Shown: piece after piece, positions 46,967-51,557 of the stretch
Layout of the letters: the number at the start of each line of letters is the position of its first letter
How positions within the stretch are numbered: the first letter of the stretch is position 1
NCBI GenBank assembly: GCA_017471175.1
Contig: JAFUVS010000003.1
Span: forward strand, 1-64,000
DNA: 64,000 nt
Direction of reading: 5' to 3'
Origin: Paludibacteraceae bacterium
GTDB lineage: Bacteria; Bacteroidota; Bacteroidia; Bacteroidales; Paludibacteraceae
The notes under the pieces: model-generated
The model's input: the letters and a program-made list of their open reading frames with translations, nothing else
Told to the model about the DNA's origin: nothing
Databases searched by the model: none
Made by a program: the position numbers and the translations under genes

Positions 46967-46996
46967 TTTGTATATAAAAAAATAGTAGTACTTTTG
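46967..46996 (+). promoter_or_regulatory. Promoter of the CXXX peptide locus
   Basis: TTTG (46967-46970), 18 bases, TACTTTTG (46989-46996). Both elements match the consensus with slightly short spacing. The precursor gene starts about 490 bases further on, so the transcript would have a very long leader. Confidence 0.7.
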
Positions 46997-47000
46997 CAGC

Positions 47001-47480
47001 GCAAAACAAAAGTTTTGCCGTATCGCGCCCGCGCTGAGGGAATATGTCTTTCGAGCGGGTAATATACAGGACATATTGAAAAGGCGTCTTAAGCGCTTTG
47101 TTTTGGCTAACTCGAATCTGGTAAATTCATAAATTCCAAAACATTGCAGCACAAGATGTCCTCTTGTGTGTATATACATTGCGTGCGCATATTGCGTACC
47201 TTATTATGATATACATACGGCGTGGGCTACGCGTTGCTTGTTCGGAATTGAAGGCAATACCAGAGCCTGAGTTAGCGGAACAGCAAGAATGCAGTCCCGC
47301 TTTTATTTTTATAAGCGGAACACTGGCACTGGTGACCGCTTTTTTGTATATTTGTGCATACTTGCCGGAATGTTCGGATCTTCTGGAATAGCGCAGCGAT
47401 CCAGAACAACTAGTAAATACACATAAGGAGGAAGCCGAAAATCCGATAAAGAGAGTAGGCAAAATTTCAAACTTAATAAA
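47001..47480 (+). ncRNA. Long structured leader or candidate non-coding RNA
   Basis: Right after the promoter, several strong hairpins follow each other. They are GCAAAAC/GTTTTGC (47001-47018), AATATGTC/GACATATT (47041-47077), GTTTTGG/CCAAAAC (47100-47142), CACAAGA/TCTTGTG (47150-47168) and CCGCTT/AAGCGG near 47298-47325. A purine-rich AAGGAGGAAG at 47425-47434 has no start codon within reach. A 75-codon GTG-started frame (47164-47391) overlaps the hairpins and is less convincing. I read the region as a structured 5' leader or independent small RNA. The known Bacteroidales-1 RNA family is one candidate to test. Confidence 0.45.
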
Positions 47481-47483
47481 ATT

Positions 47484-47771
47484 ATGGATAACAAGAGACA
47501 AGAAGAACTACAATCGCGTCGCGAATTCTTCAAAAGTGCAGCGAAGGCTGCTTTGCCTGTTATTGGTGCTGTAGTACTTTCACAACTGCCAACCAACTTG
47601 TTTGCTGCTGAGACGGAAGAAAATGGTTGTGATTGGGGGTGTTCTGGCAGTTGTTGGAGTTCGTGTCAAAGTTCTTGTCGTGGATACTGCTCTGCAGGGT
47701 GTACTGGCACTTGCACGGGTGGCTGCAAAGCTGCATGTTCCAATAGTTGTAACGCAAGTTCCGGCTGGTAA
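47484..47771 (+). CDS. CXXX-repeat RiPP precursor with Tat signal
   Basis: This 95-residue peptide has three parts. A charged N-terminus ends in the twin-arginine motif SRREFFK (residues 11-17). A hydrophobic stretch follows (about 22-39) with a likely signal-peptidase site after NLFA near residue 41. The core has 11 cysteines at positions 49, 53, 57 and so on to 89, exactly every fourth residue, with Gly, Ser, Ala and Thr between them, and ends ASSGW. Regular Cys-X3 spacing is the substrate pattern of radical SAM CXXX-repeat maturases, which are encoded next. The product is probably a Cys-crosslinked peptide exported by the Tat genes at the operon end. Its biological role is unknown. Confidence 0.9.
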   Translation: MDNKRQEELQSRREFFKSAAKAALPVIGAVVLSQLPTNLFAAETEENGCDWGCSGSCWSSCQSSCRGYCSAGCTGTCTGGCKAACSNSCNASSGW

Positions 47772-47778
47772 TTTTATT

Positions 47779-47814
47779 TAGTTAGGGAATCGCCTTTATG
47801 TGATTCCCTAACTA
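47779..47814 (+). terminator. Terminator or attenuator after the precursor gene
   Basis: TAGTTAGGGAATC (47779-47791) pairs perfectly with GATTCCCTAACTA (47802-47814), followed by TTATTT. It sits 7 bases after the precursor stop. Partial termination here would give more precursor mRNA than enzyme mRNA. Confidence 0.8.
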
Positions 47815-48023
47815 TTATTTGGGAATTATTCATAGAGGACGTATACGAGTTCAAGGAGGCAATTGTGAAATACAAAAACCGTGAACTCAACAAAATATTC
47901 TCACCAAACATGAGAATAAATGCAAATTTGAATCACGACAAAACAATTGACACGAAACAATGAGGATATTGGGCAAGGATTCTACAATGAGTAAGGTACG
48001 AATATATTCGTAATTATTATTTT
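47815..48023. other. Spacer between precursor and radical SAM genes
   Basis: A 43-codon open frame without an ATG start (about 47820-47951, with segments like EDVYEFKEAIVKYKNREL) could be a gene remnant, but evidence is thin. No second precursor, no clear promoter and no repeat were seen. Confidence 0.35.
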
Positions 48024-49241: not shown

Positions 49242-49282
49242 TAAATGAACAAATTGTAAATGAATAAATAGTAAATAGTCTC

Positions 49283-50227
49283 ATGCTACAATACTTAGTT
49301 ATTTTATTGGATGATACCAGCGTGGCATATTGCCATGCAGAAAATCCGCTCAGGGAGCGCAACCTCATTCCGTTGGATACGCTTAAAAAGGCTATTCTCT
49401 TTGGTATGAAAGAGAACCTGATGATCCAGTATGTCTATCCCGATTACGACCTGCCGGAGGAATACAACGAAGTCATTGAGTCCATCGACCATGTGAAAAT
49501 AGGTCGCGATGTAGCAGTCTATAGTGAGGTGCCGAAATCCATTGCCGCAGAAAATGCAGTATTGCGTCTTTCTATTGCCGATTTTATTGCCAAGCAGTAT
49601 GATATTGCTGCCATACTGCCGCAAGTGACGCGCCTTAATATCTGCTTGACGGATACAGAGACTTTCAAAGACGAGCAGGCAGAGGATTACAAAAAAGCAC
49701 TCGCTACGTTCAATGCCGTGTTGATCAATCAATACAAGGCAGGCAAGCAACCGCAACTGAATATCCTCACCGACCGTCTGCAACTAAAGGAAATGCACAA
49801 CTGCGGAGCAGGCGATAGCAACATTACTATTGCGCCGAATGGCAAGTTCTATCTCTGTCCGGCATTCTATTATGATGAGAAAATGGGCATCAGCAACCGC
49901 TTGAATCACCACAAACCATCCTCGGAAAGAAGCGTCGGCAATTTGGAAACAGGCTTGCAAATCTCTAATCCGCAGTTGCTCAAACTCGACCATGCGCCCT
50001 TGTGCCGTATTTGTGATGCGTACCATTGTAACCGCTGTATCTGGCTGAATCAGAAAGTGACATGGGATAACAACACTCCTTCCCATCAGCAATGTATTAT
50101 TGCACACTTGGAAAGAAATGCAGCACGCGATTTACAGCAACAACTAAAAGCAGCAGGGTTTAGTGCCGGAGAAGAAATTAAATCAATCGATTATCTTGAC
50201 CCGTTTGATGTACGGGAACAATTCTAA
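49283..50227 (+). CDS. CXXX-repeat peptide maturase partner, SPASM-like without radical SAM triad
   Basis: The 314-residue protein lacks CX3CX2C but has SPASM-like cysteine sets: CGAGDSNITIAPNGKFYLC near residues 173-191, and CRICDAYHCNRC near 243-254, with a later Cys in QQCIIAH. The first half is alpha/beta without cofactor motifs. This matches the protein family named CXXX repeat peptide maturase, which occurs next to CXXX-repeat radical SAM enzymes. It may be a catalytically inactive partner that binds the substrate or supplies electrons through iron-sulfur clusters. Confidence 0.8.
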   Translation: MLQYLVILLDDTSVAYCHAENPLRERNLIPLDTLKKAILFGMKENLMIQYVYPDYDLPEEYNEVIESIDHVKIGRDVAVYSEVPKSIAAENAVLRLSIADFIAKQYDIAAILPQVTRLNICLTDTETFKDEQAEDYKKALATFNAVLINQYKAGKQPQLNILTDRLQLKEMHNCGAGDSNITIAPNGKFYLCPAFYYDEKMGISNRLNHHKPSSERSVGNLETGLQISNPQLLKLDHAPLCRICDAYHCNRCIWLNQKVTWDNNTPSHQQCIIAHLERNAARDLQQQLKAAGFSAGEEIKSIDYLDPFDVREQF

Positions 50228-50232
50228 CAAGT

Positions 50233-50511
50233 ATGAAGAAATTAGTAGGTCAGGTTACACCTGAAGAAAAGAATGAGATTCAAACGCTCTTTGAGCGTCG
50301 TAATGGTCTGAATGAGTTGGCAAAAATCTTAACAGCCGACAATACAGACTTGTACGAAAAATTAGTAAAGGACATGGGCGAGACAGGCTCGAAGTTTCAG
50401 AATTGGTGGGATACCATGGCAAAGAAATACCAATGGGAGTCCGCAAAGAACGGAAACTGGGAAATCAACTTTGAGACTTGTGAGATATTTCTTGTAACAC
50501 CGGAAAACTAA
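50233..50511 (+). CDS. CXXX-repeat modification accessory protein
   Basis: A 92-residue soluble protein with a mainly helical first 60 residues and a short beta-like end ([19 protein letters not shown]). It lies 5 bases after the maturase partner and 13 before tatA. Position and size fit the small protein family named CXXX repeat peptide modification system protein. A role as peptide-binding chaperone is my inference, by analogy with small recognition proteins of other RiPP systems. Confidence 0.7.
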
Positions 50512-50524
50512 AAGGATAGATATT

Positions 50525-50773
50525 ATGCTAAACATGGTACTACTCTTCATCGGTACAACGGAAATCATCGTTATCGGTGGCATTGCACTTCTTATCTTTG
50601 GCGGAAAGAAACTGCCTGAACTCATGCGTGGTTTGGGCAAAGGTGTCAAAGAGTTCAAAGAGGGTATGAACGAGGTTAAAGAAGAAGTAAACAACAACGG
50701 ACAACTTCAGGAACAACCGCAAGCCGAAGAACAGAAAAAAGAGGCAACTCCGCAAGAGCCGAAGAATGAGTGA
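50525..50773 (+). CDS. tatA: Twin-arginine translocase subunit TatA
   Basis: The 82-residue protein has one N-terminal membrane helix (about residues 6-24), the [21 protein letters not shown] amphipathic helix typical of TatA, and an acidic Gln/Glu-rich tail. TatA forms the channel that lets folded proteins cross. The gene overlaps tatC by 8 bases and follows the peptide-modification genes, so it probably serves the Tat-signalled precursor. Confidence 0.95.
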
Positions 50774-51557
50774 GAACAACCAAATGCTAACATTTGGCGG
50801 ACATCTTGAGGTGCTCCGCCGGATGTCGTTTCGGGTGTTGATCGTGACAGCCGTCCTTGCGGTTGCTATTTTCTGTTTCAAAGATACGACATTCGCACTC
50901 CTGCTCGCTCCAAGCAAGAGTGACTTTTGTCTGTACAGATGGATAGAACAATTCTTTGCATGGGTAGGCTACGACTTTCACTTTGCGCCTTTCGAGGTGG
51001 ATTTGATTGCTACCGACCTTAGTAGTCAGTTTATGACGCACATCAGTACGTCGTTTTATCTTGGCTTGCTTTGTGCTTCGCCGTATATCTTGTTTGAACT
51101 ATTCCGTTTCATATCTCCTGCGCTTTATGAAAACGAGCGAAAGTATTCAATCCCTGTTCTGCTCACCATCTATACGCTTTTTGTAGTAGGCGTACTGATG
51201 AGTTACTATATCCTTTTTCCTATTTCCTTCCGTTTCTTGGGAACATATTCCGTCGCCGAACAAGTGCACAGTACGATTACTTTGGATAGCTATATATCTA
51301 CCTTTGTGATGCTCACTTTGGTCATGGGAGTTGTTTTTCAGTTGCCGGTTATTGCATATTTCTTGGCGAAACTGGGATTCATTGATAGCGAAATGTTGGC
51401 AAAGTATCGCCAATATGCGTTTCTCATAATAATGATAGTAGCCGCAATCATTACTCCGCCGGATTTGATGACTTTAGTCCTTGTCACGATTCCTCTTTAC
51501 CTCCTCTATGAAATAAGCATTATCGTTATTAGGAAAGTAAAAAGCAAGAATGAATAG
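50766..51557 (+). CDS. tatC: Twin-arginine translocase subunit TatC
   Basis: The 263-residue, six-helix membrane protein recognises the twin-arginine signal. Visible marks are the [14 protein letters not shown]-terminal segment and the conserved [21 protein letters not shown] loop ([17 protein letters not shown]), with helices after it. It is the last gene of the operon; a weak AT-rich inverted repeat follows (51558-51598). No TatB gene is present, consistent with minimal TatAC systems. Confidence 0.95.

Follow-up and report, generated by a model that had tools for sequence, protein, structure and literature searches.

The segment 46967-51557 of a 64,000-nucleotide stretch from a Paludibacteraceae bacterium (positions 1 to 64,000 of contig JAFUVS010000003.1, assembly GCA_017471175.1; the whole stretch is termed the window) encodes a putative system for a ribosomally synthesized and post-translationally modified peptide (RiPP), in which the precursor and its modification proteins are followed by genes for the twin-arginine translocation (Tat) components TatA and TatC (Table 1). 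Inspection of the sequence and its open reading frames (ORFs), together with NCBIfam and Pfam scans, recovers at matching coordinates the order given in a first-pass annotation made from the letters alone, namely promoter, leader, precursor, terminator, radical SAM/SPASM maturase, partner, accessory, tatA and tatC. A search of solved proteins relates the TatC to a solved TatC structure, and none of the six window proteins scanned passes the TatB cut-off.

Table 1. Features of the peptide-Tat locus, in window coordinates
Feature	Coordinates	Strand	Basis
Probable Bacteroidales-type promoter	46967..46996	+	TTTG / TAnnTTTG read from sequence
Structured leader RNA	47195..47323 (core 47210-47308)	+	Covariation, 45-copy alignment
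DUF805b cis-regulatory RNA element (RF02914)	47425..47461	+	46.2 bits, gathering score 35.6
Precursor peptide, 95 aa	47484..47771	+	TIGR04117, E 2.8e-11, below cut-off; leader model A4
Hairpin, terminator or attenuator, in precursor/maturase gap	47779..47814	+	15-pair stem, 6 G-C, T-rich tail
Radical SAM/SPASM peptide maturase (TIGR04115)	48024..49241	+	640 bits, cut-off 350
SPASM partner (TIGR04119), without the radical SAM CX3CX2C	49283..50227	+	211 bits, cut-off 150
92-aa modification-system accessory (TIGR04116)	50233..50511	+	102 bits, cut-off 50
tatA	50525..50773	+	TIGR01411, 66 bits, cut-off 53.9; PF02416 over cut-off
tatC, RiPP-linked clade A	50766..51557	+	TIGR00945, 165 bits, cut-off 132.7; PF00902; trees

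The window precursor opens with a leader containing SRREFFKSAAKAALP, which has the twin arginine (RR) at residues 12-13 and LP at residues 24-25 and matches the motif RRx[FL]; it is followed by a hydrophobic stretch, read by eye, and by a CX3 core (residues 49-89) of 11 cysteines with a spacing of exactly four throughout. Pfam provides no family for this protein up to an E-value of 0.1, while the leader model A4, whose alignment includes the window precursor, scores it at E 1.1e-18 and finds in its genome this one precursor. The leader was compared across 80 named loci (L names) from genome contigs, which lean to close kin because they are the best matches of 394 relatives, and of which, judging by record titles, two or more pairs come from one assembly each (L047/L056 and L052/L068). 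Counting ORFs with at least 7 cysteines within 6 kb of the maturase, minus-strand ORFs excluded, 145 CX3 ORFs were obtained; 136 of these have RRx[FL] near the start and cover 78 of the 80 loci, the precursors of the other two loci (L056 and L070) being broken by a contig end. The nine CX3 ORFs lacking RR include unrelated or truncated ones, such as that of L050 at +4195. The consensus SRREFFKKAAKxxLP lies ahead of the CX3 repeat core, and in the leaders aligned on RR (n=132) K is present at +5 in 93%, L at +12 in 93% and P at +13 in 95%; F reaches 98% at +3 and 99% at +4, where the search pattern admitted two and five residues respectively, so that the conservation of RRx[FL] and of the residue following it is partly built in. 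Cysteine intervals equal four in 2331 of 2707 cases across the CX3 ORFs.

The adjacency of tatAC in relatives, which the first-pass annotation had suggested scoring, was determined in two samples. In an order-wide set of 393 Bacteroidales genomes (G names), of which 326 contain TatC, the maturase family is present in 12; TatC lies at most 3 kb from the maturase in nine of them (G000, G383, G151, G039, G055, G173, G326, G349 and G378) and away from it in the other three (G037, G259 and G389). With tatC occurring about once per genome, 6 kb in ~3 Mb gives by arithmetic an expectation of such proximity to a given gene in ~0.2% of genomes. Three of the 12 maturase genomes (G383, G039 and G378) yielded no TatC other than the linked one, and six of the 12 show two TatC matches, as against 13 of the other 381 by a count from the table, three of these 13 (G045, G105 and G353) having one or both matches partial. 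Among the named loci, 66 have at least 3 kb of downstream sequence, and 55 of these contain both tatA and tatC; the 14 with less comprise six with both genes, one with tatA only and seven with neither. L058 and L065 appear to be the same loci as G383 and G349. Maturase and partner accompany the precursor, joined in most loci by the accessory, and the linked tat genes recur at one position behind the accessory gene. The genome of Xylanibacter rarus (L069) has a linked locus and two TatC. Four loci (L064, L075, L110 and L115) retain tatA with no tatC nearby and have one TatC match per genome; these look like cases in which tatC disappeared and a different TatC assumed its role. A genome of the same genus, reported as 100% complete (G245), has neither a maturase nor a TatC match.

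This recurrent linkage could be explained by a genuine Tat signal whose neighboring tatAC is ordinary and present by chance, any cellular Tat being able to export the peptide. Phylogenetic analysis of TatC bears directly on this alternative. A tree of 119 rows, with sequences below 200 aa and duplicates excluded and eight rows relabelled from free to linked by their coordinates, comprises 67 linked and 51 free TatC and one unclear row (L135, whose contig breaks). Forty-nine linked rows, including that of the window and with members named after several families, form a single group, clade A (support 100/99), and a second group, type B (100/94), unites the unclear row with 16 linked ones, leaving two linked rows apart; linked and free labels change only 4 times on the tree against 38.5 in shuffles. 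Clade A includes none of the 51 free rows, and it stays pure in a quick tree with 28 further TatC from two-TatC genomes devoid of the RiPP system and from distant genomes. An attempt to break the clade, in which a clade A model was run against all 393 genomes, recovered G310 and four genomes of family f111; the latter have no TIGR04115 match and score 370-387 bits, the clade range starting at 369, and exclusivity of clade A by score alone was accordingly rejected. In the updated tree clade A takes in G310 (50 rows, 99/90), and f111 forms the sister of the clade (54 rows, 100/99). The 50 rows thus include 49 that are RiPP-linked and one at a contig edge, since in G310 the contig reaches only to base 6 ahead of it, where tatA begins; that genome has no TIGR04115 match. 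The f111 tatC genes occur in other gene contexts with no RiPP genes nearby, tatA being listed beside two of the four, and their sister position implies that clade A split off from a lineage with ordinary TatC duties as well. In favor of chance adjacency, the type B linked TatC lie near free TatC, the linked TatC of G383 and G378 is the only one found there, and loci without tatAC keep RR precursors, as in Bacteroides congonensis (L093), which has one TatC elsewhere in the genome. Against it stand the absence from clade A of all 51 free and 28 further rows, its membership in the 393 genomes of five linked TatC plus G310 (at a contig edge) with the nearest outside forms, f111, as sister, and the recurring position of the tat genes behind the accessory gene. 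We regard chance adjacency as improbable.

A tie between the peptide and its own exporter is also suggested by the loci in which the RR is missing. The CX3 precursor lacks RR in four loci (G037, G571, G786 and G482), none with tatAC nearby, and in all four an ABC exporter lies 0.7-1.2 kb from the maturase. With a search model built from the same four exporters, no ABC exporter was found within 2 kb in any of the 92 other loci (90 with an RR precursor seen and two truncated), as far as their contigs reach. The four belong to two separate groups on the maturase tree, the branch of G037 being very long. Three of them keep a [KR]x[AT]LP motif in the leader (ARKTLPG, YKKTLPG and SRKTLPG) resembling that of the Tat-type leaders, which is absent from G037, and this portion of the leader may be the one read by the maturases. 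The G037 locus (L034) combines a fused maturase-partner protein, an ABC exporter, an S8 peptidase and a precursor without RR in a layout like that of the qhp operon.

The tatAC of the window is one of two in its genome. The second (C17:13493-15939; L001, L015) adjoins a gene whose translation reads as aldo/keto reductase-like and carries a twin arginine and a lipobox; its product is probably a substrate of that second translocase. As the second TatC is 43% identical to the linked TatC and falls elsewhere in the tree, the Tat of the peptide locus, which the first-pass annotation had called the system's own, appears to be a specialized paralogue and not the sole Tat of the genome. That annotation had counted a second tat locus and many other Tat substrates as evidence against a dedicated system. 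The former does exist, and the latter were not found in this 78% complete genome, where TIGR01409 has one match, the aldo/keto reductase-like protein, and a single precursor-type leader is present; TIGR01409 is not sensitive here, since it does not report the window precursor either.

Taken together, the linkage, the near-universal RR leaders, the RiPP-linked TatC clade and the exchange of exporters support the earlier proposal that precursor, maturases and tatAC belong to one pathway, and we consider it likely that the locus is a RiPP operon whose leader peptide doubles as a Tat signal. Several observations weigh against this conclusion. The window precursor remains below the NCBIfam cut-offs (TIGR04117, 43.4 of 50 bits, E 2.8e-11; TIGR04114, 14 of 20 bits). 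Separation of tatAC from the same type of precursor, named in advance as contrary evidence, does occur in a minority of relatives: of the 66 loci with sufficient downstream sequence seven have neither tat gene and four have tatA only, and G259 and G389 carry their TatC elsewhere. Linked tatC was found in none of five more distant loci within the phylum, and the accessory gene was not seen in the three f136 loci. Across 18 genomes (17 with a type A linked TatC and one with type B), maturase distances correlate better with those of the free TatC (r 0.79) than with those of the linked TatC (r 0.45), and co-divergence is thus not supported as proof of a dedicated pair. Types A and B furthermore interchange on a maturase tree of 86 rows, which omits L058, L065 and L121 as duplicates or short; when set against all other labels, label A requires 16 changes, of which well supported branches force at least 7, and label B requires 7, at least 2 forced. 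These label changes and the weak co-divergence imply that a slot for tat genes is maintained, its occupant being replaceable or subject to loss, with some species having none.

The modification enzymes provide the basis for predicting the chemistry. The maturase contains CX3CX2C and seven further cysteines in its SPASM region, all invariant in an alignment of 11 sequences (A1), and its best NCBIfam families after TIGR04115 are PapB (E 9.7e-60), CcpM (5.8e-39) and the SCIFF maturase (1.6e-33), although it fails the cut-off of the PapB family NF047865 (202.5 of 340 bits). Its solved relative is 5wgg (E 1.2e-29), which the accessible part of PMC7876137 gives as the sactionine-forming CteB. Kinship to PapB and 5wgg suggests that the maturase forms thioether cross-links. 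The partner has eight cysteines invariant in 46 sequences and no CX3CX2C, and its profile matches the SPASM part of the maturase (probability 82, E 1.1e-5); from these features it probably holds auxiliary iron-sulphur clusters or the substrate. As the fused G037 protein had been absorbed into the maturase profile, the weak second matches of that profile were left unused. Besides the maturase-partner fusion of G037, partner-accessory fusions occur in two f145 genomes. The accessory was also considered as a known recognition domain, a candidate rejected as it finds no PDB or Pfam support.

The CX3 arrays might instead bind metal or form disulfides after export, without cross-links, the maturase performing other chemistry. 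Acceptor residues are not evident, the window core offering, from its first cysteine to its last, a single Asp and no Glu, which is unlike the CX3D/E motifs of PapA as described in the part of PMC9413430 consulted; the nearest relatives of the maturase, listed above, are nevertheless thioether-forming or Cys-rich families, and we judge an absence of cross-links to be improbable.

Four described systems come closest to the present one. The NCBIfam CXXX-repeat system (TIGR04114, TIGR04115, TIGR04116, TIGR04117 and TIGR04119) accounts for the maturase, partner and accessory, all over cut-off, and the precursor has a CXXX repeat, but is itself under cut-off; the family names and descriptions shown mention neither a Tat signal nor TatAC. 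PapB, the next-best maturase family, belongs to the ranthipeptides of the freyrasin type, which according to the portion of PMC9413430 available share the regular cysteine spacing with a CX3D repeat, in contrast to the CX3C repeat with few Asp/Glu acceptors found here. In the maturation of the gamma-subunit of quinohemoprotein amine dehydrogenase (QHNDH) by QhpC, QhpD, QhpE and QhpF, as far as PMC7876137 covers it in the part seen, radical SAM thioether cross-linking in the cytoplasm and leader removal come first and transport by a dedicated exporter second, which sets a precedent for the order proposed here. Maturase, S8 protease and ABC exporter, the trio of that system, also occur together in the G037 locus; in the window, Tat replaces the exporter and the protease. 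Minimal TatAC translocases are likewise matched by a TatA and a TatC over cut-off with no protein scanned passing the TatB cut-off, but the window TatC belongs to a lineage of its own that is bound up with a single peptide family. The claim that CXXX-repeat families are known and that their coupling to Tat is the unusual element therefore holds: the families are named in NCBIfam, and the coupling recurs. Among the papers listed by the literature searches, none was found that links this maturase group or a radical SAM RiPP to Tat, nor was a prior description of the coupling encountered in the accessible portions of PMC10352776, PMC9062424 and PMC8326336; it may have been noticed earlier in the founding 2011 survey, as which PMC9062424, in the part available, cites Haft and Basu 2011.

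The Tat machine normally exports folded proteins, and RiPP leaders are usually recognized by the enzymes that modify the peptide and then cleaved off by a protease or at an ABC exporter. The chemistry, export and order of events that we infer for the window would begin in the cytoplasm, where the maturase, partner and accessory would bind the leader and install cysteine thioether cross-links. Cross-linking would thus precede export, the stiffened product being unable to thread Sec, and TatAC, bound to the RR motif, would export the folded peptide. Signal peptidase I, or signal peptidase II in the variants with a lipobox, would free the peptide into the periplasm or anchor it there, and the mature peptide would act outside the cytoplasm. 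More tentatively, Tat might serve as a quality gate, in which a leader serving both as maturase recognition signal and as Tat signal passes only the fully cross-linked, compact peptide through a TatC evolved for this cargo, an ABC exporter replacing it where RR is absent. In this reading each cysteine of the CX3C array might act as donor to the next and so build a thioether ladder. We hold the quality gate to be possible but rather unlikely.

Most likely the products form a family of cross-linked peptides located at the surface or in the periplasm, with some members anchored by lipid and others of great length; an antimicrobial function ranks second. A lipobox-like site is present in 49 of the 136 RR precursors, and one CX3 ORF reaches 434 aa and another 74 cysteines, features closer to surface material than to bacteriocins directed at neighboring gut bacteria. 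The bacteriocin hypothesis finds some support in the diversity of precursors behind a nearly fixed leader, two or more being present in 37 of 78 loci; no immunity gene stood out in the ORF lists, although no search was aimed at such genes. We hold bacteriocins to be a possible but doubtful identity of these products. The long precursors of L069 (8739-9458), L110 and L115 have a lipobox-like site, a CX3 segment and an extra C-terminal region, and the L069 protein gives a sub-threshold Lcl_C match; the CX3 part of these proteins looks as if it formed a stalk.

Upstream of the precursor, the long leader of the first-pass annotation proved richer than claimed, containing a covarying RNA of ~100 nt and the DUF805b element, the latter not reaching the gathering score in seven related loci searched. 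The RNA has three helices, its outer stem being followed by a T-rich run in a terminator-like or attenuator-like arrangement, and its core has no Rfam 15 match. In the 45-copy alignment, from which the structure was also derived, 98.3% of cells pair, and 68 cells are changed on both sides against a shuffled mean of 23.2, while the number of further pair types is on a par with shuffles (26 against 25.6); sliding the partners lowers pairing to 38-55%. Its specificity for the RiPP system was rejected: copies turned up in 11 of the 12 genomes searched, including G245 with neither maturase nor TatC, and at least nine in the window's own genome, these counts being lower bounds because 150 candidates per genome were scored. 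As read from translations, the next ORF starts like a secreted protein or lipoprotein signal in 11 of 16 stretches. The element is thus a wider regulatory one, with this operon as one user.

The promoter is a by-eye match with TTTG at 46967-46970, 18 nt, and TAnnTTTG at 46989-46996, which is probably of the Bacteroides -33/-7 type; a sigma-70 scan of the stretch is no test for this type. The hairpin behind the precursor has the longest stem among 16 terminator-like sites in 46000-52500. The flanks are chromosomal: upstream lies an ORF (42823-46308) resembling a transcription-repair helicase, and downstream, starting at 51756, one resembling gyrase B, both named from their translations. Two tRNA genes lie in the window, at 14451-14522 and 42808-42893 (-).

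In the window, then, the leader has the appearance of a Tat signal, and the peptide is accompanied by a TatC lineage of its own. If this is correct, many Bacteroidales of gut and rumen would possess a Tat translocase reserved for a single family of natural products, which would offer a genetic handle on the question whether Tat proofreads maturation. The exchange of ABC exporter for Tat amounts to an experiment, performed by nature, on how cross-linked peptides are exported.

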